64,000 nt of DNA from Leptolyngbyaceae cyanobacterium clean351 (GTDB lineage: Bacteria > Cyanobacteriota > Cyanobacteriia > DAIDHW01): NCBI GenBank assembly GCA_027451865.1, contig DAIDHW010000001.1:969530-1033529 (forward strand), written 5' to 3'. Below, piece by piece: positions 6,344-64,000 of this stretch (position 1 is the first letter of the stretch; every line of letters begins with the position of its first letter). Under the pieces are notes generated by a model. The model was not told where the DNA came from, searched no databases, and worked only from the letters and a program-made list of their open reading frames with translations. Both the position numbers and the translations under genes were made by a program.

Positions 6344-6523
6344 AGACAAAAGTGGCAGATACGCGACACTGCCTGGGATGCCTTTGCGCCCCAGTCCAGG
6401 GAGTGGCGTAGGACAATCGCATTTCCTATGCGCCTTACAGTGAGTAACAAAGACCCACGGACTCTTTCTAATCTGGACCAAGTGGCCCAGCGGCTCTCCC
6501 CACCCTGCCCCCTCACTTTCTGA
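6344..6523 (+). pseudogene. Possible coding fragment of unknown origin
   Basis: An open stretch of 59 codons after a TAG, with no start codon near its beginning. It is rich in W, R and Q early (WQIRDTAWDAFAP, then REWRRTIAFP) and ends at TGA 6521. Codon use looks like that of the host chromosome and not of the island. I cannot identify a family. It may be debris from the event that placed the island here, or chance. Confidence 0.2.
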
Positions 6524-6561
6524 AGTATAAAATTTACGTCTAGTTTGAACACTTCCAAGCT

Positions 6562-8226
6562 ATGAAAACTCCTGATATTGGCTTGTCTTTTGCCCTGTGG
6601 TTGAATCAGGTAAGAAATAGTTTCTTTAAAGAACTAATCCTAAACAAGAGCAATCTTCGACATGTCTCAATTTGGGATATTGGAGAAAGTGGAGGCTTTT
6701 TCCATCATTATGATAGTCAACATGAGAAATATTCTTATACTGATCACGAGTATCCAGCATCTCGGAATCGTAGAATTGAATATTTTCCCGAAGGAGACTT
6801 GCCACTCCATCGCCCAGAAGCCAACAACTTCATCAATAGTTCTCAGCAGTATCCTTTATTGGGTACTTCTCAAATCAAAACATGCTTCATTTGTCGTGGA
6901 TCAGGTCGTATTCCATGTAGGAGCTGCGGTGGGAGAGGCAGATCCACTTCAATTAACTCGAAAGGGAAATTTAAAAGAGATACTTGTCTAAGGTGTAGAG
7001 GAACTGGAAACGTAAGATGTGAGCGCTGTAGTGGGGAAGGGAAGCTCCTAACCTATACTTCCAAAGATTATATTTGGAAACATACAACTGATCGTGAGCC
7101 GATTATTTTGCCAATTATAGATCGTCCCAATGTACGAAGCTTAATCACCACGACTCATAGTAAAGGGGGATCATATCCAGTTGATGAGTTTACCCAAGAG
7201 GAGATTATTAAAAAAATAGGGGTATATAACGAGCGAATTGGCGCTTTAGTGCGACACGCAAATGACCAGGCTATAAGAAAAGAAGAGGAGATTAAGCAAC
7301 GCTTTGGCACGCTTTTATTCCAAGAACATTCTTGTTTCTATATTCCTTTAGGGTTTGTAAATTTATTTGTTAATCACAAATTTCGTCAGTTTTTCGTTGC
7401 CGGTAATCTAACTTATAGACGTACCCTTAGTCCACCTGTAGGCTGGAATCTTTTTAAACTACTGGGGTGGTTTGCGATTGGAGTTGCGCTCAGTTTATAC
7501 AGTTCTGTCTTAATGAAGCGTGAACTCGCTATTATAGCTATCTTAATTAGCTTGGGAGTATTGCAGTTTATTCTTGACTTCCTCTTGCAATGGCCCAGAA
7601 CCTGGCTTATATTTGATGATGATGGTTTAGGGGGGTGGTTATTCGTACATTTACTGGTTCAGTCAATTAGTCTCAGTCGCAAAGGGAAGTTATTAGATCC
7701 CTGCTACACTGAACTCTTTCATCTTCCCCAAATCGATACTTACAAATCACGTAATTCTTTTTTTTGCACCATAGAAACCGGAAAGGGAAAGCAGCGACAG
7801 AACACTGAACTTTTTCTGGTTAGTCAACGTGCTCTTAGTTTATTTAATCAAGATCTTCAAAAAATTACTCAAAGAATTCAAACCTTAGTTTGGGTAATAC
7901 AGCAACTTGACGCTGCCCAAACAGATGGATTAATTGCAGATTTTCTCAAGGTTCAATCTCCTGAAATCCGCAAACGGATTCACCTGATTCTAGTTACTGA
8001 TAAACCTGTATTTATTTCATCAGTTACGGAATTATCTCAAACTCATCAATACCTGAATCCCCAGCAAATTAGTTTATACTCTCTCTCCTTGCTACAAGCG
8101 TTTCAAGAATTGCAGGATGGGCAGCAGGGTCCAGAGACAGAAACAACTCTTAAAATGCTCCTAGAAGTGGTAGAACTACCACAAAAAGAGATGCATTCTA
8201 ATTCAGGTAAGGGATCTGAATATTGA
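6562..8226 (+). CDS. Zinc-finger (DnaJ-type CxxC) protein with two membrane segments, island gene 1
   Basis: 554 residues, AT-rich compared with its surroundings. Four CxxC knuckles at C108/C111, C119/C122, C142/C145 and C153/C156, with CRGSG and CRGTG spacing, match the zinc-binding domain of DnaJ, but there is no J domain. Two hydrophobic segments at about 298-316 and 322-343 predict a membrane hairpin. The C-terminal 200 residues are soluble and helical. It is followed 37 bp later by the GTPase gene. I know of no named homologue; it may be a membrane-bound partner or sensor for the GTPase. Confidence 0.8.
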   Translation: MKTPDIGLSFALWLNQVRNSFFKELILNKSNLRHVSIWDIGESGGFFHHYDSQHEKYSYTDHEYPASRNRRIEYFPEGDLPLHRPEANNFINSSQQYPLLGTSQIKTCFICRGSGRIPCRSCGGRGRSTSINSKGKFKRDTCLRCRGTGNVRCERCSGEGKLLTYTSKDYIWKHTTDREPIILPIIDRPNVRSLITTTHSKGGSYPVDEFTQEEIIKKIGVYNERIGALVRHANDQAIRKEEEIKQRFGTLLFQEHSCFYIPLGFVNLFVNHKFRQFFVAGNLTYRRTLSPPVGWNLFKLLGWFAIGVALSLYSSVLMKRELAIIAILISLGVLQFILDFLLQWPRTWLIFDDDGLGGWLFVHLLVQSISLSRKGKLLDPCYTELFHLPQIDTYKSRNSFFCTIETGKGKQRQNTELFLVSQRALSLFNQDLQKITQRIQTLVWVIQQLDAAQTDGLIADFLKVQSPEIRKRIHLILVTDKPVFISSVTELSQTHQYLNPQQISLYSLSLLQAFQELQDGQQGPETETTLKMLLEVVELPQKEMHSNSGKGSEY

Positions 8227-8263: not shown

Positions 8264-9211
8264 ATGAAACTAGATCCGGAATTTAAACGATACAAAGGTA
8301 TCCTGGGACAAGTTCTTTATCGCCTTGGCTTCATAGAGAAAAGCCTTAACATACCACTTTTTGGAGTGAAGGGTGCTGGAAAGAGTTATTTTCTTTTCTC
8401 ACTGGGCATGTTCCTTGCCCATCCACTGCGGAAATTGGGTAAGCCAGAAGGTCTTTCTGAAGATCTTCTCAATGGTTATTGGGCAGAGATATTAAAAGGC
8501 AACGTGATCTCAATTACGCAAGGTAAATTTGATGTGGATTTATTGGTCAGACAAGTTTACTCTGGCGATCATGAAGTTGCAGTAGAACGGCAAGCCTACT
8601 TCGAGTCTGGTGTAATAGATTGGTATCATAATCTTGATGATGTAGAACAGCCTGCAACTAATTCAGATAAGTTGGCTACTCGGATCTTTCTACGTACAAA
8701 TGACATTTCCGGTCAGGAATTCACGTCGGCAATGGAGCGGTTACGTGAGCCGACCACGGAGTTGGGAGGTGATCCAATGACTGGGAAATTTATTCAAGTC
8801 GTGCGAGATGGAGATGGCTGTGTCATGATTATTGATCTAGTTCGAGTGAATTTGACAGCAGAACAATACAAAAAAGATCGTGCAAGATATATTCGGGAAG
8901 CCTTAGGAGAGCAGTTGGTTCCATTAGCCAGGGGGCTAGAACTTGCCCTGAGAAATCAGCGTGATCCCAAAAGACGCTATCCTCTATTCTTGGTATTTCC
9001 AAAACGAGATATTCATGGATTGAACAGTCAAGATTTAACTGACTTATTTCAGCGTATGTTCGCCATGACTATTGCCCGTCTGGAGGAAAAAATCTCTATC
9101 CATGTTCATTCCATCCAAAATATGGGGTTTGAGGAAGACGAAAATGGTGATCTTAAGTTTTCCCGTGGTTTAGGACAATTCTTGGCATCTGTTTACTCAG
9201 TCTTTCGTTAA
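8264..9211 (+). CDS. P-loop GTPase-like protein, island gene 2
   Basis: 315 residues, preceded by AAAGGGAGAA. GTPase motifs can be read in order: G1 at G34-V-K-G-A-G-K40-S41, a G3-like DISGQE at 147-152, and a G4-like PKRD after a hydrophobic strand (K247, D249). A strand ending in CVMIIDL lies between G3 and G4. This is the layout of TRAFAC-type GTPases found in predicted bacterial conflict systems (the double-GTPase group), but the exact family needs a profile search. It lies between the zinc-finger membrane protein and island gene 3 with short gaps, so the three probably form one operon. Confidence 0.75.
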   Translation: MKLDPEFKRYKGILGQVLYRLGFIEKSLNIPLFGVKGAGKSYFLFSLGMFLAHPLRKLGKPEGLSEDLLNGYWAEILKGNVISITQGKFDVDLLVRQVYSGDHEVAVERQAYFESGVIDWYHNLDDVEQPATNSDKLATRIFLRTNDISGQEFTSAMERLREPTTELGGDPMTGKFIQVVRDGDGCVMIIDLVRVNLTAEQYKKDRARYIREALGEQLVPLARGLELALRNQRDPKRRYPLFLVFPKRDIHGLNSQDLTDLFQRMFAMTIARLEEKISIHVHSIQNMGFEEDENGDLKFSRGLGQFLASVYSVFR

Positions 9212-50888: not shown

Positions 50889-52310
50889 TTAGAGACTAGC
50901 CAGGCTCTCTTTTAATTTTTGGTGTACTATCAGCATCAGGCTAGGCGGCTCATGACCGCTAACGGGTTGATCAAAGGAACCAAACTTAAACTTTTTTCCA
51001 GACACGAAGTTGAGGCATTCCAAGACATGACTCTCCCAGTCATTCTCGGTAGAATTCCAGGCTTCAAAAAGATCACGTTCACCGAATCCTCCAGTATTGT
51101 GAAATAGTTCGTTTCTTCTGTCTACCAGAGATTTCCGCCGTCTAGCAGAGGTCTGATCAAAGTTAAATAGACTTTTTATATACTTATTATTTTTCCACCG
51201 GTCTTGGTGCTTAACATAGAACAACTGAAATGCTTCCCATCCGTGGGTTTTACCTCCAATATCTCTAGTGACTAAACTCTCAAATGCTCTGTAGGTATGA
51301 AACATAGCTTCAACAGTATTATCCTGCCTTAGCCGCACAAATCCTAAATATGCAGTTTCATAGGCTGTCCACCACGAGTTTTCTGCCTGGTTACACCTCT
51401 GGTTCCCAAAGTCAGGGTGTTTTGAAAGCCTTTTCCCAAAGTCCTCAAACCTAGCCTTGTTCCACAGGGTTGCCGCTTCTAGGAGAATCTTGTCATTCTT
51501 GTCTAAGTAAGCAGCCACTAAGTCTCTGACTCCCGCATAATCGTGGCGGTCTAAAAGTTCCTTCGCCTTTTGTTTTTCAAGTTCTACTAGGTAGCTTGAA
51601 CTTTTGAGCACCTCGTAGGGGCTCTCTTGTTTATCAACGTAGCTGATCAAGAACTTAACCTGATGGTCAAACAGTCCTAAACTGATGAACTGCACGGCGG
51701 AGGAGAGAGCTGGAGTACCAGCCTGGTGGCTGACATAAACTATGTCATCCGGTTGAACTCCAACAGTTTGGTCTCGAGCAGTGAGACCACGAAGTTGGTC
51801 ACGTACTAAACCAAGAACTTCATTCCAGTTATCTAAACCTTTCCTGGGGTCGGTTGGCCGCAGGTAAACTGGATTGCAGGGTACTCCGGGAAACTTGCTC
51901 TGAAAATATTTCTCAAGAATTGGTCGCAGTTCACAGGTGTCCTTCCAGTAGGGGTCTTGCCTCCGGGAATACTCCGGGAATATATCAGTCTGGTCAGTCA
52001 GCAGAACAGTAATTGCCTCCGGCAGTTGATCGGGTTCGTCTTTCCACAGCTGGCAAAAGTTATCCAGCAGGGGAAACCTCAGGGAGCTAAAGATCTCGTC
52101 TTGGGATATCTCATTTGCCCGATACACAATGCCGAGTATTCTCGGATCGACTTGATAATATCCATTCTCAGCTGGGTGCAGATTCCAAGACTTGCTGGGG
52201 AAACTGTAGTCTGTCTTTATGTCGTCATTACACCAATAGTCCCATTTCTTGCGAGCCTCACTACCCAATTGAACATCACTACTGCCGATGGTCACAATCC
52301 AGAGATTCAT
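50889..52310 (-). CDS. CARF-HEPN ribonuclease (Csm6/Csx1-type effector of type III CRISPR)
   Basis: 473 residues. The N-terminus (LWIVTIGSSDVQLG) and VSHQAGTPALSSAVQFIS near residue 205 are the Rossmann-like CARF ring-nucleotide sensor. Near the C-terminus RRNELFH gives the HEPN catalytic motif R399-x4-H404. Such proteins are switched on by cyclic oligoadenylate made by Cas10 and then cut RNA non-specifically. The stop of the double-RAMP gene and this start overlap by one base, so it is part of the operon. Confidence 0.88.
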   Translation of the reverse strand: MNLWIVTIGSSDVQLGSEARKKWDYWCNDDIKTDYSFPSKSWNLHPAENGYYQVDPRILGIVYRANEISQDEIFSSLRFPLLDNFCQLWKDEPDQLPEAITVLLTDQTDIFPEYSRRQDPYWKDTCELRPILEKYFQSKFPGVPCNPVYLRPTDPRKGLDNWNEVLGLVRDQLRGLTARDQTVGVQPDDIVYVSHQAGTPALSSAVQFISLGLFDHQVKFLISYVDKQESPYEVLKSSSYLVELEKQKAKELLDRHDYAGVRDLVAAYLDKNDKILLEAATLWNKARFEDFGKRLSKHPDFGNQRCNQAENSWWTAYETAYLGFVRLRQDNTVEAMFHTYRAFESLVTRDIGGKTHGWEAFQLFYVKHQDRWKNNKYIKSLFNFDQTSARRRKSLVDRRNELFHNTGGFGERDLFEAWNSTENDWESHVLECLNFVSGKKFKFGSFDQPVSGHEPPSLMLIVHQKLKESLASL

Positions 52311-54064
52311 TACACATCACCCCCCCAAAGTTTCCGAAAGCCAGAGCTCTCCGTAGCCAGGAACCGGAGAAAGTTATCTGACTCATGTGAACCGTCTGGA
52401 AAAATAGTGAGCAGCTCGAGAAACTTGGGCGTTTTGCGGATTATCGGCTCCCCCCGATTCTCAGGGTTCTTGCGCAAAACCACTACCGGATACATCCTGT
52501 GCCATAGACTACCCACCTGTCCCACCTTGCCGGCAAATGCCGTCCGGTAAATCGAACTCCCAGGCTGCCCTCGTCTTAACTCTGTTTGATATGGTCCATG
52601 AAACCAGCGAATCGCCTCACTATTTTCTTTATCCTCCGCTTCCCGGCCCCATACCTGTACCTTAGCCGGATGCCATGCTTCACGCCAATCCCCGGACCAT
52701 CGGTCAGATGGTGACTGGATGCCTTGTAATTTGATCCATTCCTGGGCCACCTGACGAACCTGATCGATAAACCCGGCTACCTTCTCCAACCGCCACACCT
52801 TTATTCGCCGTAATGTCTGGTCTCCTAACCACTGCCAATGACAACCGATCAAAGCCTTATTAGAATTTTGATAATAGTCGCTGAAGAACTGGCGGTGGTC
52901 AGCCCGCCGCCATGATTTACCAAATCCACCAAACACCATGGCGAACTCTATCAGATGCCCTAGGAGCTTCTCGAGAGTTGATTTATGACTAGGGTTATCA
53001 AGGGGCCTTGCCAAGTACCAGATTAGAGTCCCCTCTACGTCATAGTATGGCTGGGCATAGGAACCTCTACCAAAGGTATCGAGAGTGAGCTGAGACTCTC
53101 GGAACTTACAGCCTAATAAGCCGACTTTGCCCTCTTTGCCACTAATGCCCCCAAATAAGGTCTCTACCAAAGCCTCAGCCTTGCCAGCGTCAGTTAATCC
53201 CCCAAAGACCCGCAGGGCGTGACCACGTAAGGCTGCCCGGAAGATATTCGGTCGGAACTCCCCCTCCCCGGTGACTAATTTGGGGGCCTGACCCTGGCCT
53301 TTCAGGGTGGCTTGGTAGAGGACTTTGGTGTTACCAGTACTATCACCCACCTGACCATAGCCAGCCGCGACCCTTGAACCTAGTCCTCTGGCTAGGGCCT
53401 GCTGCCAAATCTGCCCAATGGTTTCCCATTCGGCCGGCGACAACGGTTGTGTACTGGAAATACCAAATCTCAAGTTAGGCTTGTAGAGGGAAATTTGCAC
53501 AAAGGCCCCTCCTTCTTTTTTGTCATCTTTAACCTGCCAGCGCTGTTGGGGATGGACAACGTCAACTAGGTGTTTTCTCCATTCATCATCAGTCGGATAG
53601 CCGCCGTGAAACCTCAATATTCCCGGCTGCCAATCGTTATTTGGCAAGGGTTTACCACAGTACTGGGCCGCCTGCTGTGGATTGCAAGCCCGCCGAAACA
53701 AACCCTTCATAGAGCTGCCCGGAAAGTATGGCAGCCCCCGCGCCCCAATCACCGGGCGAATCACTCCATCATCCATGCCGCTGTTGGTCAGCAACCGCCA
53801 CGAGACCTGGCAGTCATAGGTGTGGAGCCCTGCTGCTAGTGGAGATTGAACTGGCTCAGCCCGTGATGTCCACTCGTCAGCCCAACGTTTCGCATCCGAT
53901 TCTTTGTTCTTCTCTAACCGCTGAATTTGGCACCGCCCGTTTACCTGTGCCCGAAACATCATCGGCACTTTTTGGGCGACATCTCCCTGGGCAACATTAG
54001 GAATCACTTTCATCAGCTGCTCCACCAACTTTATAACGTTGAGTCCACCACACAATGCAGTCAC
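52310..54064 (-). CDS. cmr6: Cmr6 fused to a second, Cmr1-like RAMP domain
   Basis: 584 residues; the real start may be M18 (MKVIPNVAQGD, 54013). The first half is Cmr6: SWRLLTNSGMDDGVIRPVI, then YFPGSSMKGLFRRA and the Gly-rich GLGSRVAAGYGQVG. From about 265 a second RAMP begins with EFRPNIFRAALRGHALRVFGG cut here as FRPNIFRAALRGHALRVFG, then LFGGISGKEGKVGLL and a late Gly loop VFGGFGKSWRRADH; this is the pattern of Cmr1. Ordinary Cmr6 is about half this length, and no separate cmr1 is in the operon. Confidence 0.75.
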   Translation of the reverse strand: MTALCGGLNVIKLVEQLMKVIPNVAQGDVAQKVPMMFRAQVNGRCQIQRLEKNKESDAKRWADEWTSRAEPVQSPLAAGLHTYDCQVSWRLLTNSGMDDGVIRPVIGARGLPYFPGSSMKGLFRRACNPQQAAQYCGKPLPNNDWQPGILRFHGGYPTDDEWRKHLVDVVHPQQRWQVKDDKKEGGAFVQISLYKPNLRFGISSTQPLSPAEWETIGQIWQQALARGLGSRVAAGYGQVGDSTGNTKVLYQATLKGQGQAPKLVTGEGEFRPNIFRAALRGHALRVFGGLTDAGKAEALVETLFGGISGKEGKVGLLGCKFRESQLTLDTFGRGSYAQPYYDVEGTLIWYLARPLDNPSHKSTLEKLLGHLIEFAMVFGGFGKSWRRADHRQFFSDYYQNSNKALIGCHWQWLGDQTLRRIKVWRLEKVAGFIDQVRQVAQEWIKLQGIQSPSDRWSGDWREAWHPAKVQVWGREAEDKENSEAIRWFHGPYQTELRRGQPGSSIYRTAFAGKVGQVGSLWHRMYPVVVLRKNPENRGEPIIRKTPKFLELLTIFPDGSHESDNFLRFLATESSGFRKLWGGDV

Positions 54065-54419
54065 AAAGCTGAGTCAAAACTGCCAAGGCAACCCGTTGGT
54101 CTTCTATGGACAGGCTCCACAGTTTGTTTGAAACGGATTCAATTGTTTTGGTGTCCTCAGGTTTAACGGAGTCATTTGGTAACTCGATGCCCGTCTTTAG
54201 CATCACCTGACAGAATTTATCCCAGGTCTCTTTCCAGTACCTTGACTTATTCTCCTCCTTAACTTTAAGGCGCAGGTGTTCACCCCAAAAGCGCTCCAAA
54301 CCGTAGGAGACAGCAACCCGCATTTTATGGGATTGGTTCAAGGAATTGGGGTCGTGCTTACGAGCATTAATGACCAATTTTTGAGCGATACGGTCTAGTT
54401 CATAGGAGTGCCAAGCCAT
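53997..54419 (-). CDS. cmr5: CRISPR Cmr5, small subunit of the type III-B complex
   Basis: 140 residues, all helical: YELDRIAQKLVINARKH at the start, VAVSYGLERFWGEHL, and KLWSLSIEDQRVALAVLTQL. Position between cmr4 and cmr6 and size fit Cmr5 (Cas11 group), which lines the crRNA-target duplex. Overlaps the cmr6 start, and shares one base with the cmr4 stop. Confidence 0.85.
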   Translation of the reverse strand: MAWHSYELDRIAQKLVINARKHDPNSLNQSHKMRVAVSYGLERFWGEHLRLKVKEENKSRYWKETWDKFCQVMLKTGIELPNDSVKPEDTKTIESVSNKLWSLSIEDQRVALAVLTQLCDCIVWWTQRYKVGGAADESDS

Positions 54420-55252
54420 TACTGATAACCTCCCGCAATTAATACACGGCAGCGACCAAAGCCGATAGACTCTAGACCGCCGAAATAGAGCTCCGAGGTG
54501 TAAGGCGTTTTAGAATCAATCTCCCCAAATGGTTTCCACCCATCTTTTTTTAAGGCAATGGGGAAGACCAAAATACTGCCCTCCGGTAGGGCTTCGGTAT
54601 TGAAGAAGGCTCCCCGCTCAGTGTCCACCTTCTTCATATCGTCCTGTAACTTCACTCGGCTCTGGCGGTAAAGTGCCATGTCATGCAGCATGACAATATC
54701 ATTGTCATCAACTACCACGAGTTTATTGGGGTCTAGATCTGTGCCCTCGGGGACCCAAGCTTTTAGGTCTTTCTCATGCTCAATCTCCAGAAACCCCAAG
54801 TTAAAAAAGAGGATTTTGCCCCGGTTAGGCATCTGCCTCCCCTGTAGCCCGGCCTGGGATGTGTAGGGGACTGGGACCTGATCTGAGATACCCGTAATTC
54901 GCTTAAATCTCTTGAGCAGCCTGGGACAGCTCACCCAGACCACTGGCTGACCCGGGCAAAAAACAGGCATCCACACCAGGGAAGCGTACTCAAACTTGAC
55001 CAGGGCTTCGCTAGTCCCCCCGTCAGATAAACCTGCCACCGCCTCATGGCCGTACCAGGTTTGCTCTTCACCCGGTTCATTGCTGCGCATATCTGCCCGA
55101 AACCGGCCGCGGATCGAACTGCCGGGGATTATACCAGTTCGGGTGAATTGATCCCGGAAGATCAGATTTAAGTTGCCTGTTTCCTCCCCAGCAGTTGCCC
55201 CCACGTGGACAGGGGCTAGGGTTTCGATGATGCCGTAAGCTTTTCGGTACAT
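54419..55252 (-). CDS. cmr4: CRISPR Cmr4, backbone subunit of the type III-B complex
   Basis: 277 residues. LAPVHVGATAGEE, then IIPGSSIRGRFRADMR is the RAMP signature, and the C-terminus has LYFGGLESIGFGRCRV. Cmr4 forms the repeating backbone and cuts target RNA every six bases with an Asp that, as I recall, precedes LPIxRE in other Cmr4 proteins. Here that stretch reads GNLNLIFRD, putting N29 at the Asp position. Overlaps the cmr3 3' end by 37 bases. Confidence 0.88.
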   Translation of the reverse strand: MYRKAYGIIETLAPVHVGATAGEETGNLNLIFRDQFTRTGIIPGSSIRGRFRADMRSNEPGEEQTWYGHEAVAGLSDGGTSEALVKFEYASLVWMPVFCPGQPVVWVSCPRLLKRFKRITGISDQVPVPYTSQAGLQGRQMPNRGKILFFNLGFLEIEHEKDLKAWVPEGTDLDPNKLVVVDDNDIVMLHDMALYRQSRVKLQDDMKKVDTERGAFFNTEALPEGSILVFPIALKKDGWKPFGEIDSKTPYTSELYFGGLESIGFGRCRVLIAGGYQ

Positions 55253-56403
55253 TTTGGTACTCCCTGAATATCAACGGGCAAACTCAAGCCGCAGCCCAAA
55301 TGCTTAAGCGGAAATCCTTCCTTCGGAAACCACTCCTGCGGAAAATCCCACCAAGTCATCCCCAGAGGCTCCCGCAGCACATAGACACTCCCGGCCGGGA
55401 CAGCGTAGCGCCCCCTGCTCAACCGCCCGGTGCTTTCGGGGTCATAGCTGTTGTTAGCATCCACACCGTTGCGGTTGTGAGACCGACCAATGCGATAGCG
55501 AAACGGCACCGCCTTATCGGTCAGGAGCTTAAGATCCCGTTTGGGAAAGCTAGGATGTTGGGGGTAGCGGTAGGACAGCTTATTTGAGCCCCAGACTCCA
55601 GGGGTAATCAGCGCAAATGTATGGCCAATTTTCTGGTTCAAAAGACGATTGATCCTGTGGTTAGGCGATAGGGGATGACTTTCGATTTCAACCAAATGAC
55701 CTTCACCCCCGAAACGATACCAACCATTGAACTGCCCATGTTCCACATTGGTGAGATACACCAGGCAATCCTCCTCTGGCAGCTGGACAGCATTTTCCAA
55801 AAACAGGCCATCCTGCGCGACCACGTGTCGCTCATCAGGTTTCAGCTGAGGATGTAGCAATGGAGTCGCCCTCCAGGGAGCATTTGCGACCACTCCTGGT
55901 TCCTGGAGCTGACTAGAATGCTCATTCCAGGCGCTTACGAGTTGCCAGGAGTACGCAGGCTTAATAGAATTTTCCCGGCGCTGCCACTGGTATTGGTTAA
56001 GGTGCCACTCTGAATCACCTGGCTCAGGGGACTGGTCTGGAAGTGGGCTGGCCCCCGCCTTTTTTGCCAGGAACCACTCATCTAGAACCAGCTTGCCACA
56101 CTCATCACGACCAACCACCCGATGCCAGGGGATTGGGACATAGAAGTCTCTGGGCGTATCGTCACGTTTAGCCCAGAAGGGGCCCGCAACCACTAACTCC
56201 CGCTTCAGATGTTGAGGATCAGCAAAATTTTGTTCTCGATTAGCATTTAATAATAATCCCGCCATAGTCGCAGCATCAGGGGGAAACTTAGTGTTAGAGC
56301 GCCCGACTAGGTTTTCAGGGGACAGAAAGCCACCCGCGCTACCATACATTAATCCTAAGGGTGATACCGTAACTAAGGATTTTAATTGCGACATAGTTGC
56401 CAC
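55216..56403 (-). CDS. cmr3: CRISPR Cmr3 (Cas5-type RAMP)
   Basis: 395 residues. Cmr3 features: the N-terminal LVTVSPLGLMYGSAGGF, the middle HTFALITPGVWGSNKL, and the C-terminal GSVYVLREP with a conserved YAVPAGSVY. Cmr3 caps the crRNA 5' handle next to Cas10. The start may be M4 (MSQLKS). Overlaps the cmr2 stop by 22 bases. Confidence 0.88.
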   Translation of the reverse strand: MATMSQLKSLVTVSPLGLMYGSAGGFLSPENLVGRSNTKFPPDAATMAGLLLNANREQNFADPQHLKRELVVAGPFWAKRDDTPRDFYVPIPWHRVVGRDECGKLVLDEWFLAKKAGASPLPDQSPEPGDSEWHLNQYQWQRRENSIKPAYSWQLVSAWNEHSSQLQEPGVVANAPWRATPLLHPQLKPDERHVVAQDGLFLENAVQLPEEDCLVYLTNVEHGQFNGWYRFGGEGHLVEIESHPLSPNHRINRLLNQKIGHTFALITPGVWGSNKLSYRYPQHPSFPKRDLKLLTDKAVPFRYRIGRSHNRNGVDANNSYDPESTGRLSRGRYAVPAGSVYVLREPLGMTWWDFPQEWFPKEGFPLKHLGCGLSLPVDIQGVPKCTEKLTASSKP

Positions 56404-58010
56404 CCTACTTGAATCAGGTCATCAATCCAGTTCACAACTGCGACATCAATGGGAGATTTATCTACTCCGGTAAGATACTCCCACTGTCGCTCTTTTTCAA
56501 ACTTCTCCCCAGCATTATCAAAGTAAAGATCCAAAACAGATAAGGGAATCCCCCTTCTCATATCTATCCCCTCCATCTCCTCTAGCCGAACCGCATGCCG
56601 AGCCTTAAGCGTTGCCCAATCACTATACAAGTGGCCCCAATTAGCGGTCTTGCCAGACCCCTTAGCCATTTCTTCGCGAGTGTTTATACCATCCCGGTCA
56701 CGATACTTTATCAAAATATCAAGACCGGCCCAGGGACAAGTCCACTGTACATACTGACCGCTGTTGAACAAAACACGGATTGTGACGCGATTACGACCCA
56801 AGGTCTTCGCTCGCTTTTCTGCTTCCCGACAATGCTGGAGCACGTCCCGCTGGGGGACACTAGGGCCAGCCCAGACAAAACCAACACTCACCGTTATTTC
56901 TTGACCATGCCTCTTCCATTGCCCTGGCAATTTTACTAACCAGTCCAGAGCTTTAGCTGGAGGAGTAGGTCTTTGGGGGTCTTGGCTATAAATTACTCCC
57001 ATGAAGTCATCCCCCCCTGCGTACACTACTCGTCCCAAGTCTTGGGGAAAGCTCTCCTTGAAGTCGCTTCCCCACCGACGCATCGCCTGGCTAAATTCTT
57101 GCAGTTTGTCATCACCGGTTAGGCCCTCAAGGTGTTTGCCCACCTGGTCACCATCCCCCATGAACCAGCCTGTCCAATGACCAGGACGGTCGACCTCAGG
57201 TAGGCGTACCATTTCCGCGAAACTCTCCAGCCTAAAGCTGCGGTCCAGGTACTCTCCAATGCCTTCATATCTAGTAACCAGGCGCTTAACTAGCTCAGGA
57301 ATACTTAGACGTTCGTCGGGGCGCAAGAATTTGCCTTCAGGTTGGCCTTGAGAGTAAGACGACTCCAATACCCGGGCAAGCTTGGTATAGAATTCCTCAA
57401 CTCCTTGCTTGAGATTTTGTCTTTCTACTTGGGTCATCTCTTGCCCAAGGTTCCGTTCTTGACCTAGGCCATGCCAGGCAACTGCATCAGTTCCACTTAG
57501 ACTGGAGCTCTCACCTACCCAGTTAATCCCGATCCAATCCCGTTTCAGCTTCCGAGTTTCCAGATCTCTCATGGCAGCTCGTGAAGTATCACCTGTGCCC
57601 CAAAAAACCTCCCAGGTATAGCTACCCCACCGTTCCCACTCCCCTTTTTGCTTACCGATTTGCTCCTCGGTCTGTGACCAGTGGTAATGCTCCTGAGGTA
57701 TGTCGAGGTTGGCCTCCACCCATTCTCGGCAGAGCCTCAGAATCCTCTGCCACTCCCCCAAAAGAGTGTTTTGCACATCGTTGCGATCAAACTGCCTTGG
57801 TCCCTTGACTAATATTCTGTTAGGCATTCCCTCTTTAACATCAGGTAAGCCAGGAGAAATCACCTCAAGACCTTGTGACTGAGCCTTTTCCACCAGGACA
57901 GAGCTCAGGTATGACAAAAGCAGCGAGGCTCCAAATAAGTCACGCAACTTACGGGATCTTTCAATGAAACCTTGAACAGGGGCAAAGCTGATAGCAGTGT
58001 AGATTAACAT
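56382..58010 (-). CDS. cmr2: CRISPR Cmr2/Cas10 with active cyclase motif, no HD domain
   Basis: 542 residues from ATG 58010 (MLIYTAISFAPVQGFIERSR); a longer in-frame start at 58079 looks non-native. The N-terminal HD nuclease domain is absent. The second palm domain carries G332-G333-D334-D335 in YAGGDDFMGV, the active site for cyclic oligoadenylate synthesis. VSVGFVWAG and the zinc/D4 helical tail follow. First gene of the minus-strand operon cmr2-3-4-5-6-CARF/HEPN, all overlapping. Confidence 0.92.
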   Translation of the reverse strand: MLIYTAISFAPVQGFIERSRKLRDLFGASLLLSYLSSVLVEKAQSQGLEVISPGLPDVKEGMPNRILVKGPRQFDRNDVQNTLLGEWQRILRLCREWVEANLDIPQEHYHWSQTEEQIGKQKGEWERWGSYTWEVFWGTGDTSRAAMRDLETRKLKRDWIGINWVGESSSLSGTDAVAWHGLGQERNLGQEMTQVERQNLKQGVEEFYTKLARVLESSYSQGQPEGKFLRPDERLSIPELVKRLVTRYEGIGEYLDRSFRLESFAEMVRLPEVDRPGHWTGWFMGDGDQVGKHLEGLTGDDKLQEFSQAMRRWGSDFKESFPQDLGRVVYAGGDDFMGVIYSQDPQRPTPPAKALDWLVKLPGQWKRHGQEITVSVGFVWAGPSVPQRDVLQHCREAEKRAKTLGRNRVTIRVLFNSGQYVQWTCPWAGLDILIKYRDRDGINTREEMAKGSGKTANWGHLYSDWATLKARHAVRLEEMEGIDMRRGIPLSVLDLYFDNAGEKFEKERQWEYLTGVDKSPIDVAVVNWIDDLIQVGWQLCRN

Positions 58011-58574
58011 ACGACTACGAATGCATACATAGGGTTGGGGCGCTGGCAACGTGTGACCGATTCTGGCTTCAACTGGCAAAGCTGCTTTTGATAAATTCCC
58101 GTTGTCATGAGGACCCTCTACTCACTTTAATTACTGTTGTGAGCGGAAGGGCCTATTTAAGCCTCTGGCTAAGTGCCCTGGGTTTAGGAGCTGAAATTTA
58201 AGATCCGAAGCAATACTAGAGACCTCATTACTTGCCTAAAGCAACTTCCCCATGCATACGGCTAGCTGGAGACTAAGCCTTAAACCAGACTCCCAAGCCT
58301 CAATTTGCTGGGGAAGCTAGATTGTGGCGATGGTAGCACAGGCTTAGACTATTTGGTCACGCCACAGCCAGGCCATGGGTTAATTAACCTTGCGGACCAC
58401 AAGGGGGTGGGCATAGGGTTCGAGGGCTGCTTTCTACTCCTGGGAGGAACATTGTCTCAGCAATAGAGCAAATATATTATAATTACCAGCAAAAGCCTCA
58501 GGGTGTCTTATCGACTTGTACCAATTGTCTTTCGCGTGCCAGCCTGGGGATGGAGGTCACTGGGGCCGGCAAAT
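58011..58574. other. Gene-free leader region of the cmr operon
   Basis: 564 bp with no credible gene. Contains an AT-rich patch at 58468-58485 with TATAAT-like elements on both strands, and a CTCAC/GTGAG inverted repeat near 58119-58141 that could be an operator for the operon. No clear -35/-10 pair for cmr2. Confidence 0.4.
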
Positions 58575-58610
58575 GTATCCATGTAATTGATATCCCCAGC
58601 GCGTGGGGAC
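58575..58610. repeat. Degenerate CRISPR repeat A (orphan)
   Basis: 36 bp with 31 matches to the repeat of the array at 61999; changes at repeat positions 3, 9, 10, 18 and 28. The hairpin half is kept apart from one loop base and one stem-flank base. It is followed at once by a 3' fragment of a UDP-glucose dehydrogenase gene. Confidence 0.8.
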
Positions 58611-58735
58611 TTGAACGCCAGACCCCAGACGGCAAAGGGCTTGCCGACCGGGCGGTGTTCGACGGGCGCAATATCTGGGAGCCCGACAGCGTGCGCGCTG
58701 CGGGGTTGCGCTACTACAGCATCGGGCGGGGGTGA
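58611..58735 (+). pseudogene. 3' fragment of UDP-glucose 6-dehydrogenase gene
   Basis: In the frame ending at TGA 58735 the sequence reads GKGLADRAVFDGRNIWEPDS, then VRAAGLRYYSIGRG, which is the C-terminal end of UDP-glucose dehydrogenases (FDGRN...GxxYYSIGR). The upstream part is missing; homology begins right behind repeat A. Higher G+C than its surroundings, suggesting a different bacterial donor. Confidence 0.75.
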
Positions 58736-58815
58736 GGCGAGGCAGCCCCTGGCCCCCCTCCTCCAGTTGTAGAGTAGGTGGCGCTGCTCGCTTGCCGCGA
58801 ATGGCTCTCCCGGCG

Positions 58816-59220
58816 TCACCACACGCCTGGGCGCCTAGCGTGGGTCGGCACGATTTCCTTACCGTAGGGGAAGAAGGCCAGACCCGCCAGCTTGATGTGC
58901 TGGAGGGCAAATGGGATGCCGATGATGGTGATGGCGCACAGCAGCGCCGATACCAGATGCCCCAGCGCCAGCCACCATCCGAACAGAATAGCCCAGATCA
59001 GATTGCCCAGCGCGCTGAAGTCACTGCCCACCACGCCGCTCGGCTTGTCGACCACCTTGTAGCCGAACGGCCAGAAGCTGAGCGTGCCGATGCGAAACGC
59101 CGCAATCGCCCACGGAATGCCAATGATAGTGATGGCGCAGAAGAGCGCGGTGAGCCACCATGTCAGCCCCATGACAAAGCCACCGAGGATGAACCACAGG
59201 ATGTTGCCGATCAGTCGCAT
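58816..59220 (-). CDS. yccF: YccF-family inner membrane protein
   Basis: 134 residues. Two tandem halves of the YccF domain, each with ITIIGIPWA or ITIIGIPFA motifs, and LSFWPFGYKVV and LAFFPYGKEIV. Four membrane helices predicted. Intact, but it lies in a 633-bp block bounded by degenerate CRISPR repeats A and B, next to a foreign gene fragment, so it was probably acquired. Function of the family is unknown. Confidence 0.88.
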   Translation of the reverse strand: MRLIGNILWFILGGFVMGLTWWLTALFCAITIIGIPWAIAAFRIGTLSFWPFGYKVVDKPSGVVGSDFSALGNLIWAILFGWWLALGHLVSALLCAITIIGIPFALQHIKLAGLAFFPYGKEIVPTHARRPGVW

Positions 59221-59243
59221 AGGCTATCCGGTTTGAAATTATC

Positions 59244-59278
59244 GAGACCACTCAATTGATATCCCAGCGAGTAGGGAC
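59244..59278. repeat. Degenerate CRISPR repeat B
   Basis: 35 bp, one base shorter than the standard repeat and with several mismatches, mainly in the first six positions and the stem (AGCGAGTAGGGAC). Repeat C follows after 41 nt, the distance of a spacer. Confidence 0.75.
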
Positions 59279-59319
59279 ATAAAATGGCCGTACCCGCTAC
59301 AGAATTACTGTAGCACAGA

Positions 59320-59355
59320 GTTTCTGTTCAACTGATGTCCCCAGCGAGTAGGTAC
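59320..59355. repeat. Degenerate CRISPR repeat C
   Basis: 36 bp, starting GTTTCTGTTCAACTG and ending GCGAGTAGGTAC; about five mismatches to the array repeat. Paired with B across a 41-nt spacer-like interval (59279-59319). Confidence 0.8.
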
Positions 59356-59363
59356 GCACGCAG

Positions 59364-59908
59364 TCAACGGATGGCTCGCAAGTGGTAGACATAAGTCCAA
59401 CCCCCTTGGCTAACCCGCAGGTACCAGCCTGGCTTGGCAAACAGCTTCTCGCTGAGCAAGAAGACCCTGGTATTCGGGAGGGTCACTCCGGGATTATCCT
59501 GGGGGGTCAGGAGGGGGTCTTGTCCACCCGCTGTAGATTGGAGGTAGGCGGTCCCCATCGGGTCCTCCGCGTACACGTTGCCCTGGGGGTCCACCAGGTC
59601 CACTGCGGGTGCATCGAAGATTGACAGGGGATGGTCAGCTTGGTTGACAAAATGCCACCTCACGACCACGTATTCTGCCCCCCAGGCGGAGCCACTGCCC
59701 CGGTAATCCCAATCCCCTCTACGGATAGGGCGTGGGTAACCACCAGCGGGCTTACGGTGACTCGGTAATCCCCAATGTTGAAGGGCTGCCCTGGGGGAAC
59801 GTCCGTGGTGGGGGTGGAGGACGGGAGATTTAGGGCATTAAAAATGCACAGCCCGGCCAAGCCGACGGTCGAAATGGCCAGGATTTTTATCCAGCGCGGG
59901 AGAGTCAT
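59364..59908 (-). pseudogene. DUF4352-like secreted protein gene broken by a frameshift
   Basis: Two adjoining frames make one gene of about 181 residues. Frame 1 from ATG 59908 has a signal-anchor (WIKILAISTVGLAGLCIF) and GDYRVTVSPLVV, and stops soon after PPGGQN. Frame 2 continues with EYVVVRWHFVNQADHPLSIF to RAIR. Adding one G to the run of six at 59678-59683 joins them as PPGGAEYVVV. The joined product resembles DUF4352 immunoglobulin-like lipoproteins or secreted proteins. It may be a real decay or a sequencing slip. Confidence 0.6.
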
Positions 59909-60091
59909 GAGTACCTATTTTCTTCGATAGCATGGAACTCGCAGACAGAGTTTTAGCTTTCGCCAAACACCTTGGCTCTGTCTTTCCTTGTCGCTATCCA
60001 GAGGGGAACCCCCTTGAAGGCGAAGGTGGCCTCGAGGGTCACAATCCACACCCCCGAATACCACTTTCCCCCCTCGGGCTAGCAAGGGGAC

Positions 60092-60119
60092 AAAAAAAAC
60101 CCCTAATTGCTTAGGGGTT
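60092..60119 (-). terminator. Rho-independent terminator for minus-strand transcripts
   Basis: AACCCCTAA (60098-60106) pairs with TTAGGGGTT (60111-60119); on the minus strand the hairpin is followed by eight T (60099-60092). It would stop transcripts arriving from chrA or from the array beyond it. Confidence 0.88.
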
Positions 60120-60139
60120 GTGTAGTCGAAGTTGTTTCT

Positions 60140-60175
60140 ATTCATATTCAATTGACATCCCCAGCGGGTGAGGAC
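60140..60175. repeat. Degenerate CRISPR repeat D
   Basis: 36 bp ending CCCCAGCGGGTGAGGAC; the central TTCAATTGAC part is kept and the first six bases are lost. Repeat E follows after 41 nt. Confidence 0.75.
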
Positions 60176-60216
60176 ACCCAAACACCGCCCGTTTGGGGCT
60201 GGCTTACCCAGGGGGA

Positions 60217-60252
60217 GTTTCCATCCAGTTGATGTCCCCAGCGAGTGGGGAC
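60217..60252. repeat. Degenerate CRISPR repeat E
   Basis: 36 bp with two mismatches to the array repeat (positions 9 and 12). The best preserved of the orphans. D and E enclose a 41-nt spacer-like interval (60176-60216). Confidence 0.9.
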
Positions 60253-60384
60253 CATCAAGCTATTTCGGCATTTAGGGATCCCCCATGGGTCTTGGGAGAA
60301 TGATTCGTTTCGTGATGATGAGCAGTCTCCTCAATAGATTTACTCACCTGAAATATCCTGTGTCTAGAAGCACTGACCCATAGC

Positions 60385-61842
60385 CTAAATCCAGGACGTG
60401 GGTGCCAACATTCCCGTGAGAGCACCGATAGTCAGCACGAACGCCGGATGCCATTTCCATGGGATGAGTAAGACTAAGGAAACAGCAAACAAAAGCAGAC
60501 TTGCGGGATGTGTCCAGTGCAGTGCCGTGGGAGTAAGGGTAATGGCGGCTGTGAGAATCAAGCCTACCACAGCTGGATTGATACCTGCCAAAAAGTCTTT
60601 GACTTGTTTAACATTGCGAAGACGTTGATAGTAATGAGACACAAACAGCATGAGTACTGTCGCTGGGAGAAATAGAGCCACTGTCGCTGTTAAAGACCCG
60701 GCAATATTAGCGACTCGATAGCCTGCAAAGGTGGCAAGTACGGCGATCGGGCCTGGAGTAAGTTGGCTTATGGCAACGCCGTCGATAAACTCTTGATGAG
60801 TAAGCCAGCCTAAGTCGGTTACTAATTGCTGATTGAGGATGGGAATCAATGCGAAGCCACCACCGAAAAATACCAAGCCGACCTTGAGAAATATCGCAGT
60901 CAAGGGTAACAAGCCTACCGTAGTGACTTCAGACCCAGTTTGGGCGATCGCCAATAAGCGATGGGGTAAAACCTGCATCAATATGGGCAGGGTCAGCATT
61001 AGATGCGGCTTTTCTGGATTGGCGGGCTGCTTGGAATTAGGGTGACCAAGTTTGAGCAAAAAGCCGATAATTCCAGCGATCGCCAACAACCAAACTGGAC
61101 TAATTTTGGCCAAGCTGCCCAGGCAAGCAGCCAGAAATAACCCCATTGCAACCGGCGATCGCACTGATTTACGCCCCATCGACCAAGCAGCACTGATAAT
61201 TAGCGCAATCACCACTGGCCCCAGACCTGCCAACACCCCCTGAAGGGACGGAATTTGGTGAAAAGTAAAATAAAGCCAGGAGAGGAGAATTACCAACGAG
61301 ACAGACGGGGCTAAAAAAGCCACTTCTGCCAGGAGTGCCCCACTTAGCCCAAATCTCCGATAGCCGATAAAGATTGCGGTATTAACTGCAAACGGCCCCA
61401 GGATTTGCCCTAAGCCTACGCCATGCAGAAACTCTTCCGTTTCTAAACAATGCTGCCGCTGCACGCATTCCTGCTCCATCAGGGCAATCACGGCAACCCC
61501 ACCCCCAAACCCGATCGCTCCTAGCTTGAGAAAAGTCAGGGCCATCTGCCAAAGCGTTATGGTTGGCGGGTCAGGCGGGATATTGGTTGGCGGGAGGGAT
61601 GGCTGAAAAAGATCGTCCATCTCGTTGCCGGGTTCGAGGGTGAACTTGTCACCGACGGGGTACAGAGTGTAGTGAACGGGCACCCCAAAGGTGCTAATCA
61701 CCAACTCAATGGTCCCATCGCTCATCTTTTCGCGCCTGACGATTCGGTGGCGAATTCCCCAAGTGGCGTTGGCGGTCAAGATCCGCCTCCACTCAGATTC
61801 GGTTAATTTACGACTAGGGTCAGTGTACCATGAGGTTCCCAT
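60385..61842 (-). CDS. chrA: Chromate transporter ChrA with N-terminal extension
   Basis: 485 residues from ATG 61842 (MGTSWYTDPSRKL), with GAGAGGG upstream; a start at 61902 is less likely because it lies in the promoter. Residues 1-85 are a soluble extension not normal for ChrA. Two CHR domains follow, with FLKLGAIGFGGGVAVIALME near 98 and FLKVGLVFFGGGFALIPILN in the second half, the tandem-duplicated ChrA signature. Exports chromate by exchange or proton-driven transport. The gene holds three GCGATCGC (HIP1) sites. It sits between orphan repeat E and the array. Confidence 0.9.
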   Translation of the reverse strand: MGTSWYTDPSRKLTESEWRRILTANATWGIRHRIVRREKMSDGTIELVISTFGVPVHYTLYPVGDKFTLEPGNEMDDLFQPSLPPTNIPPDPPTITLWQMALTFLKLGAIGFGGGVAVIALMEQECVQRQHCLETEEFLHGVGLGQILGPFAVNTAIFIGYRRFGLSGALLAEVAFLAPSVSLVILLSWLYFTFHQIPSLQGVLAGLGPVVIALIISAAWSMGRKSVRSPVAMGLFLAACLGSLAKISPVWLLAIAGIIGFLLKLGHPNSKQPANPEKPHLMLTLPILMQVLPHRLLAIAQTGSEVTTVGLLPLTAIFLKVGLVFFGGGFALIPILNQQLVTDLGWLTHQEFIDGVAISQLTPGPIAVLATFAGYRVANIAGSLTATVALFLPATVLMLFVSHYYQRLRNVKQVKDFLAGINPAVVGLILTAAITLTPTALHWTHPASLLLFAVSLVLLIPWKWHPAFVLTIGALTGMLAPTSWI

Positions 61843-61862
61843 TTTGTTTTCCCTCTCTGGAT

Positions 61863-61902
61863 TGACACTGTCATTATAGTATATTTGTACTAGTCTTGAC
61901 AA
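61863..61902 (-). promoter_or_regulatory. Promoter and operator-like palindrome of chrA
   Basis: On the minus strand TTGTCA (61902-61897) and TATAAT (61878-61873) stand 18 bp apart. Directly behind the -10, TGACA-C-TGTCA (61863-61873) is a perfect palindrome where a repressor such as ChrB or an unrelated regulator could bind. Confidence 0.6.
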
Positions 61903-61998
61903 TATGCGGATTTGAAACCCGGCCTGGGACGAAGTCCAGGATAGGTGGTTTTTACCCTATTTTTAACCCAAAGAAGAAGAAAAAGAACTCTACCCCTA

Positions 61999-64000
61999 GT
62001 TTCCATTCAATTGATGTCCCCAGCGAGTGGGGACGTCGCTCACTCGAGAGGCGATAATTGTCACCTGTTCGCCCTGTTTCCATTCAATTGATGTCCCCAG
62101 CGAGTGGGGACCGCCTGGACGAGCCCACCTTGGGTTCAGCCAAAAAAGAGGTTTCCATTCAATTGATGTCCCCAGCGAGTGGGGACAGTCAGGCGGTTTT
62201 CCACAAGGTGGCTAAGTGGTACAAGAAAGAGTTTCCATTCAATTGATGTCCCCAGCGAGTGGGGACAAGGGATTCGCCCCCCTTCCGTCGCCTACCCGTA
62301 CAGCTTGTTTCCATTCAATTGATGTCCCCAGCGAGTGGGGACCTGGGCCAGAGGCGCCGCCGCTTCCCGGCACGGAGATTCGTTTCCATTCAATTGATGT
62401 CCCCAGCGAGTGGGGACTTACCGTAATTGGTACGCTCCAGGAACCAACCCCGGCAGGTTTCCATTCAATTGATGTCCCCAGCGAGTGGGGACTTTCTTTT
62501 GGGGGAGTTTGCGATTTGGTTCAAGGGAAGGTTTCCATTCAATTGATGTCCCCAGCGAGTGGGGACCCGCGATACCTTGGCGGTTAGTAAGTACGCTGAG
62601 AACGAGTTTCCATTCAATTGATGTCCCCAGCGAGTGGGGACAAGTCGGGGACATAATCCTCCCGGGGATGCCCCGAGATGGGTTTCCATTCAATTGATGT
62701 CCCCAGCGAGTGGGGACGCCATAGACGTCCTCCAAGCCTTCTCTAATAAATCGGCAGTTTCCATTCAATTGATGTCCCCAGCGAGTGGGGACCGCTTCCC
62801 AAACAACACAATTGCCCAAACCGCCCATTCGTTTCCATTCAATTGATGTCCCCAGCGAGTGGGGACGCGCCCTACACGTCGATTTAGCCGACCCCCAGTT
62901 GCCCCAAAGTTTCCATTCAATTGATGTCCCCAGCGAGTGGGGACTGGTTTAAGTTGCTCAAGCCGGACCTTTACAACGGCAAGTTTCCATTCAATTGATG
63001 TCCCCAGCGAGTGGGGACTTTATACTTTGCTTTCAACAAGCGAGTACAAGAGGAAGTTTCCATTCAATTGATGTCCCCAGCGAGTGGGGACCCTGGGACG
63101 TTCCCCAATCCTCAATCAAGCGGGCCCTGAGTTTCCATTCAATTGATGTCCCCAGCGAGTGGGGACACGCCTTCTTCTTGCGCTAAAGGAGCAGTAGGAC
63201 TATTGTTTCCATTCAATTGATGTCCCCAGCGAGTGGGGACGGACTTGGCAAAAACCGAGTTTGGGGAGTCCAACCCCCTGTTTCCATTCAATTGATGTCC
63301 CCAGCGAGTGGGGACAAGGCCGAAATCTCGCTTCCTGGCTGCATTGCCGGGGTTTCCATTCAATTGATGTCCCCAGCGAGTGGGGACTGAAGCCTGGGCC
63401 TTAGCCCAAAAACCCAAGGCCCTGTGGGATTGGGCTTGTTTCCATTCAATTGATGTCCCCAGCGAGTGGGGACATTGCTCAACTCACCGTCGTAGGTCTA
63501 TAAAACAGGAGGTTTCCATTCAATTGATGTCCCCAGCGAGTGGGGACTCGGGTAGGTGGTATCCCGAGCGGATGCTGCCTTGTTGGTTTCCATTCAATTG
63601 ATGTCCCCAGCGAGTGGGGACTCCTAATCTCCGCTGAGGAGATAGAAGTCGCGGAATGGTGGTTTCCATTCAATTGATGTCCCCAGCGAGTGGGGACGGA
63701 AGAATCGCGTCCCAGTCGTCCTGGGGCAATAGTCCTGTAGTTTCCATTCAATTGATGTCCCCAGCGAGTGGGGACCCTGGTCCGAGGGGAAGACGGGGTG
63801 TTCCGGGTGGGTCCGTTTCCATTCAATTGATGTCCCCAGCGAGTGGGGACAAAGTGTCCCGGTACTAATTAATCCCCTAGCCGAGAGGGTGTTTCCATTC
63901 AATTGATGTCCCCAGCGAGTGGGGACCAGGGTTGCCCTTTCCAGAAATGGTCACAGGGTGATTCTGTTTCCATTCAATTGATGTCCCCAGCGAGTGGGGA
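61999..64000 (-). CRISPR. CRISPR array, 27 repeats visible, continues beyond the window
   Basis: Repeat of 36 bp, plus-strand form beginning GTTTCCATTC and ending GTGGGGAC, with a 6-bp stem GTCCCC/GGGGAC around AGCGAGT. All 27 copies look identical; the last (63966-64000) lacks only its final base. There are 26 spacers of 36-44 nt except one of 50 nt at 63388-63437. Read on the minus strand the repeat ends ATGGAAAC, like the standard 8-nt crRNA handle, so transcription is probably leftward, with the leader to the right of the window and the old end at 61999. The neighbouring cmr operon is on the same strand. Confidence 0.98.

Follow-up and report, generated by a model that had tools for sequence, protein, structure and literature searches.

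Gene blocks between decayed CRISPR repeats at the trailer end of a type III-B array in a Leptolyngbyaceae cyanobacterium

The stretch of DNA analysed here (i.e. the window) comprises 64,000 nucleotides of Leptolyngbyaceae cyanobacterium clean351 (GCA_027451865.1, contig DAIDHW010000001.1, positions 969,530 to 1,033,529 of the forward strand). The window contains a type III-B cas operon and an array of clustered regularly interspaced short palindromic repeats (CRISPR; array 1) with a 36-nt repeat, GTTTCCATTCAATTGATGTCCCCAGCGAGTGGGGAC. Between the operon and the array lie five decayed copies of this repeat, A to E, oriented as in the array, with blocks of genes among them. Beyond the window, array 1 closes with a leader, past which lie cas2 and cas1 (L009 8108-9383). 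As the leader and cas2-cas1 are situated at the opposite end, the degenerate repeats represent the leader-distal, old end of the array (i.e. the trailer). The position of the leader and the GGAAAC end of the repeat suggest that array 1 is transcribed on the minus strand. The operon, repeats and array are arranged as follows, with repeat scores out of 36.

50889..58079, minus strand: type III-B cas operon (Csx1, Cmr6, Cmr5, Cmr4, Cmr3, Cas10b/Cmr2; PADLOC models)
58575..58610, plus strand: repeat A, outermost, degenerate, 26/36
59244..59278, plus strand: repeat B, degenerate, one base deleted, 21/36
59279..59319, plus strand: relic spacer B-C, 41 nt, normal spacer length
59320..59355, plus strand: repeat C, degenerate, 26/36
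60134..60175, plus strand: repeat D, degenerate, with a 6-nt internal tandem duplication by alignment, 20/36 for 60140-60175
60176..60216, plus strand: relic spacer D-E, 41 nt, likewise of spacer length
60217..60252, plus strand: repeat E, almost intact, 32/36
61999..64000, repeats drawn on the plus strand, probable transcription on the minus strand: trailer end of intact CRISPR array 1, which continues outside the window as far as the leader and cas2-cas1

Repeat copies were scored by a gap-aware method using 228 kb of shuffled DNA and the remainder of the window as controls. The top control score was 12 as compared to 20–32 for A–E. Repeat D reaches full length from 60134 once the 6-nt tandem duplication (TATTCA) is included. 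The B-C and D-E gaps of 41 nt each match the lengths of intact spacers, which are mostly 36–44 nt with a full range of 36–50 nt. With repeats above chance, gaps of spacer length and a trailer position by the cas operon, A–E are remnants of a type III-B CRISPR array. Separate mini-arrays with leaders of their own were rejected, as no similarity to the leaders of the three arrays of this genome was detected next to A, C or E. Comparison of the B-C and D-E spacers with flanking DNA and genes produced matches no better than those of shuffles. A 7-bp inverted repeat was observed in both relic spacers and in 4 of the 67 intact spacers of the genome.

Three blocks of 633, 784 and 1746 bp separate A from B, C from D and E from the array, respectively. 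The original prediction had described five degenerate repeats, two pairs of them at exact spacer distance, as the remnants of a working array at its trailer end, and had given these block lengths; all of this was borne out. The contents of the blocks are listed below.

58611..59243: block A-B, 633 bp, 63% G+C (guanine plus cytosine), ugd fragment and yccF
58613-58735, plus strand: C-terminal ugd fragment, last ~40 codons, matching UDP-glucose dehydrogenases (E=0.002)
58816-59220, minus strand: yccF, complete (PF03733, E=6e-37)
59356..60133: block C-D, DUF4352-like pseudogene and terminator-like hairpin
59364-59908, minus strand: DUF4352-like gene, frameshifted, stop codon 9 nt from repeat C
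60119-60098, minus strand: terminator-like hairpin of block C-D
60253..61998: block E-array, 1746 bp, chrA fusion gene
60385..61842, minus strand: chrA (chromate transporter), fused in frame to an N-terminal gene of 80 amino acids (PF02417, E=1e-86; TIGR00937)
61603..61842, minus strand: 80-amino-acid gene fused upstream of chrA
61873..61902, minus strand: sigma-70-like promoter TTGTCA-18-TATAAT, 11/12 consensus bases, aligning with its array 3 counterpart

In block A-B, ugd homology begins at most ~12 nt past repeat A and is confined to ~40 C-terminal residues. The yccF gene, whose ATG lies 23 nt from repeat B, is present as a single copy in this genome and occurs in 110 of 370 cyanobacterial genomes with a closest cyanobacterial relative of 60% identity. 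As block A-B has a G+C content of 63% in a window of 55%, a foreign origin of yccF is plausible. The cyanobacteria used for comparison represent the host's class outside its own order, and each insertion is deduced from one genome. The DUF4352-like gene of block C-D has a weak match to a DUF4352 protein (24%, E=7e-4) and no match in a Pfam search; what was earlier called a gene is a pseudogene split over two frames (59364-59669 and 59660-59908). Relatives of chrA exist in cyanobacteria, such that not all blocks are clearly alien. A scan of genome contigs with chrA found no close relative. The proposal that the blocks are genes of foreign and differing origins held clearly for the array 2 gene described below and plausibly for yccF, and was weakened by the cyanobacterial relatives of chrA. 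A transposon origin of the window blocks (i.e. an insertion sequence, IS, or a miniature inverted-repeat transposable element, MITE) was rejected, as no transposase, terminal inverted repeats or clear target duplications were found in them.

This repeat is carried by three genomic loci with homologous leaders. A whole-genome search located dispersed degenerate repeat copies at the trailers of all three arrays and nowhere else; dispersal of the repeat through the genome was rejected since the copies were confined to these loci. All three arrays being affected, and at their trailers only, the earlier suggestion that the trailer is a recurrent landing zone was upheld. In array 2 (L010), a complete thiosulfate dehydrogenase gene, tetH, lies between repeats at 7998 and 9089 and was assigned by NF052225 (369.6 bits; cut-off 300). 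The closest proteins in the plasmid set are proteobacterial and share 53–60% identity with it, and tetH was missing from 369 other cyanobacteria. These relatives and this absence clearly indicate that tetH is foreign. The tetH block sits between direct duplicates of 80.5% identity, each holding CRISPR repeats, and both repeats at the block edges have the variant CAGGGAGGGGGG.

L010 7696-8009 and 9090-9413: 320-bp direct duplication in array 2, flanking the tetH block

The duplication around tetH supports recombination in array 2. Additionally, the 320-bp duplication contains MITE-like sequence, pieces of which recur elsewhere in the genome, and is adjoined by an IS605-type tnpB gene (L010 9602-10866).

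The trailer of array 3 (L011) contains small secreted-type open reading frames (ORFs) in blocks between repeats. Its first block, 8296-8602, holds a frameshifted copy of the 80-amino-acid gene, whose homology to the array 1 copy stops a few nt short of the repeat on one side and ~10 nt short of that on the other, leaving at most ~14 nt of the block beyond the gene homology. As the homology nearly touches both repeats, an intact old spacer is not retained there. Past the array 3 trailer lie a tyrosine recombinase gene (L011 3830-4972) and, at 6352-6641, a fragment with 79% identity to the 5' part of this gene; no tRNA gene was found near them. Close to the leader ends (L009 9693-13074 and L011 11326-12741), additional Csx1-like genes of the CARF-HEPN type were observed together with a second protein resembling Cmr6, placing type III-B parts on both sides of the array.

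Exactly two copies of the 80-amino-acid gene occur in the genome (window 61603-61842; L011 8306-8519). Both are situated in the first block behind an array (i.e. arrays 1 and 3) and have aligned promoters. The gene was absent from 389 other cyanobacteria and had no phage, plasmid or viral-contig relative; structure prediction for its product was of low confidence (predicted local distance difference test, pLDDT, of 67). As the trailers of all arrays sum to far less than 1% of the genome, two trailer-borne copies are unlikely by chance, and they reflect either shared ancestry of both trailers or one source used twice. Apart from this gene, the trailers of arrays 1 and 3 have no block or spacer in common.

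Arrays adjacent to cas1 were surveyed in other cyanobacteria, giving 111 repeat chains that include the three of this genome as well as a few that are not CRISPR arrays or take in a neighbouring array. None of the roughly 100 other cyanobacterial arrays contained several decayed repeats separated by genes. Single interruptions were due to IS elements (L138, L077) or MITEs (L145, L109), and in three other arrays one non-transposon gene block was located between full-length repeats. The first (L129 7626-8771) spans 1146 bp, encodes a 2OG-Fe(II) oxygenase and is flanked by perfect repeats on each side, with three units separating it from the leader end; two congeners of the L129 cyanobacterium with the same repeat are without it. 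The second (L125 2381-3347) is a trailer block encoding a putative secreted protein and an opposite-strand gene whose end is cut at the repeat, as for ugd in the window, and the third (L116 4726-5229) is a trailer block with a 79-amino-acid ORF. A DNA-level search for donors of these three blocks covered 25 genomes, congeners included, and matched each block to its own genome only. A fourth case, L189, has a DUF433-containing gene pair beside a badly conserved repeat. The search for repeat-flanked genes in other genomes, which the original prediction had called for, recovered single blocks between full-length repeats and no decayed trailer with multiple blocks. A lone near-perfect repeat of the same family was also observed amid chromosomal genes (L071 8645-8680, genome G358). 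Phage origin of the cargo was rejected: no PHROG matches were obtained for the cargo of the genome studied here, a phage search with tetH was negative, and viral contigs gave no match to an array 3 gene or the L129 gene, each result applying to the genes searched.

These observations are best accommodated, with somewhat better than even confidence, by a decayed array 1 trailer that took in foreign fragments of 0.3–1.7 kb between its repeats on separate occasions, chiefly by recombination, and kept them through repeat decay. Fragments of about one gene each would have lodged between repeats on distinct occasions, likewise at arrays 2 and 3. Entry would have occurred by repeat-to-repeat joining, through either homologous recombination with incoming DNA bearing repeats or unequal exchange. 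The old end of an array may be dispensable and inserts there tolerated, and later decay of the repeats would block removal by recombination, leading to a build-up of blocks. According to published work (PMC9458426), degenerate repeats recombine less readily than intact ones, which would account for the persistence of blocks with decayed flanks. The cargo genes are mostly co-oriented with array transcription, and chrA has promoter-like sequence of its own. The main gene has this orientation in 8 of 9 scorable blocks (~2% one-sided, noticed post hoc) with L189 as a counter-example, a hint that co-orientation is favoured.

Several points weigh against entry by recombination. The 320-bp duplication was found at one block only, in array 2, such that the evidence for the homologous recombination proposed originally comes from array 2 and not from the window blocks. 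No repeat-bearing donor molecule was found, and no search aimed at repeat-bearing elements was made. The insertion events are deduced from one genome. Distances between genes and repeats in the window are mixed, with three edges tight (at most ~12, 23 and 9 nt) and three at 132–231 nt; the earlier statement that repeats mark the block ends accordingly held for half of the six window edges when the junctions were checked. Finally, block A-B has at most ~35 nt unaccounted for, about one spacer length, and these nucleotides may be the remnants of a spacer into which a simple insertion occurred.

This last point leads to the main rival, which is considered possible and somewhat unlikely, namely illegitimate insertion into old spacers by double-strand-break repair or some form of transposition, with passive repeats and a trailer that is merely tolerant. 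The leftovers of block A-B (at most ~12 + 23 nt, about one cut spacer) agree with such insertion, the blocks resemble random pieces of a genome (a cut ugd beside a whole yccF), and cyanobacterial arrays do receive IS and MITE insertions. Nine genic blocks, six from this genome and three from other cyanobacteria, were examined for split repeats over the 100 nt at either end. Half repeats above background were present at the edges of none of the nine blocks, which are bounded by full-length repeats. Repeats split by a MITE (L080, 15/18) and by an IS (L077, 12/18, with the facing repeat truncated) were detected in other arrays. As about half of an array consists of repeats, unsplit edges in nine of nine blocks are unlikely if insertion was random (p ~0.003, with the caveat that blocks were recognised via their repeats and donor ends are unknown). 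Terminal inverted repeats and clear target duplications are absent, and the leftover in the array 3 block 8296-8602 is smaller than one spacer.

A scenario in which Cas1-Cas2 captured long DNA in the form of giant spacers near the leader, later pushed to the trailer by newer spacers, appears quite unlikely. Full-length repeats flank the blocks on both sides, Cas1 and Cas2 genes adjoin the array, and the L129 block lies between perfect repeats close to the leader end, all as expected for such capture. Set against this, all other spacers are tightly sized (36–50 nt), Cas1-Cas2 measures short substrates, and the 320-bp duplication of array 2 is longer than duplication of a repeat would yield. No positive evidence was obtained for the adaptation machinery as a possible route of entry, which the original prediction had offered.

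A very unlikely explanation is that arrays 1 and 3 arose by duplication of a locus whose trailer already contained the 80-amino-acid gene, in which case the blocks would owe more to local duplication and deletion than to repeated capture. Homologous leaders and the location of both genome copies of this gene in a first trailer block with aligned promoters fit this explanation, whereas the absence of any other shared block or spacer does not, and the original entry of non-array genes between repeats would be left unexplained. A functional role for B-C and D-E as ectopic mini-arrays (i.e. CreTA-like RNA antitoxins), as opposed to relics, is extremely improbable, for while both have paired degenerate repeats with one spacer beside a cas operon, as for CreA (PMC9458426), the spacers match flanking DNA, including promoters, no better than shuffles, CreA works through Cascade and the locus here is type III-B, and repeats B and C have a damaged hairpin stem.

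The locus has parallels in known systems. For solitary repeat units, viruses or prophages have been proposed to integrate into arrays via sequences resembling the repeat (PMC8616872), and a prophage integration case in Streptococcus pyogenes is cited in PMC10651486. Recombination between a repeat in such an element and an array repeat would likewise leave foreign DNA flanked by repeats; the blocks here differ in being small and without phage genes or integrase. In the nearest published case found, in Sulfolobus solfataricus, an 899-bp pNOB8-like insert lies between two repeats of CRISPR locus F (PMC4390879 section 4.5) and, as with the window blocks, a foreign fragment of similar size replaces the normal units between repeats. 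However, this was one insert at one archaeal locus as compared to several genic blocks with decayed repeats in the trailers of three arrays. Whole-number multiples of the repeat unit, a relation noted for S. solfataricus, gave no clear fit to the block lengths of the window (8.8, 10.8 and 23.6 units). Insertions of IS elements and MITEs also break an array with non-array DNA, but the blocks here have no transposase, inverted ends or target duplication and leave repeats unsplit. Gene cassettes of integrons are single genes in series with short repeats between them and mostly one orientation, much as here, whereas an integron integrase and attC sites were not recognised and the repeats are CRISPR repeats. 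Inserts between CRISPR repeats are already known, and a gene trailer with many blocks in several arrays may be new, as judged from the open part of PubMed Central.

Taken together, these findings suggest that acquired DNA can be parked in worn-out arrays. A broader interpretation is rather unlikely, in which arrays of these cyanobacteria are gene-capture platforms that receive gene-sized fragments exactly between repeats (by repeat recombination or Cas1-Cas2), mostly co-oriented and fixed by repeat decay, with the trailer becoming a gene island. If whole genes are indeed acquired and retained at the old ends of arrays, CRISPR loci would be both barriers to foreign DNA and settling sites for it. 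Array trailers would then be worth searching for acquired functions, such as the chromate transport and thiosulfate oxidation seen here, and a testable question would be raised as to whether genes enter by repeat recombination with incoming DNA or by occasional uptake of long fragments by the adaptation machinery. The decayed repeats would keep a record of old insertions that repeat recombination would otherwise erase.

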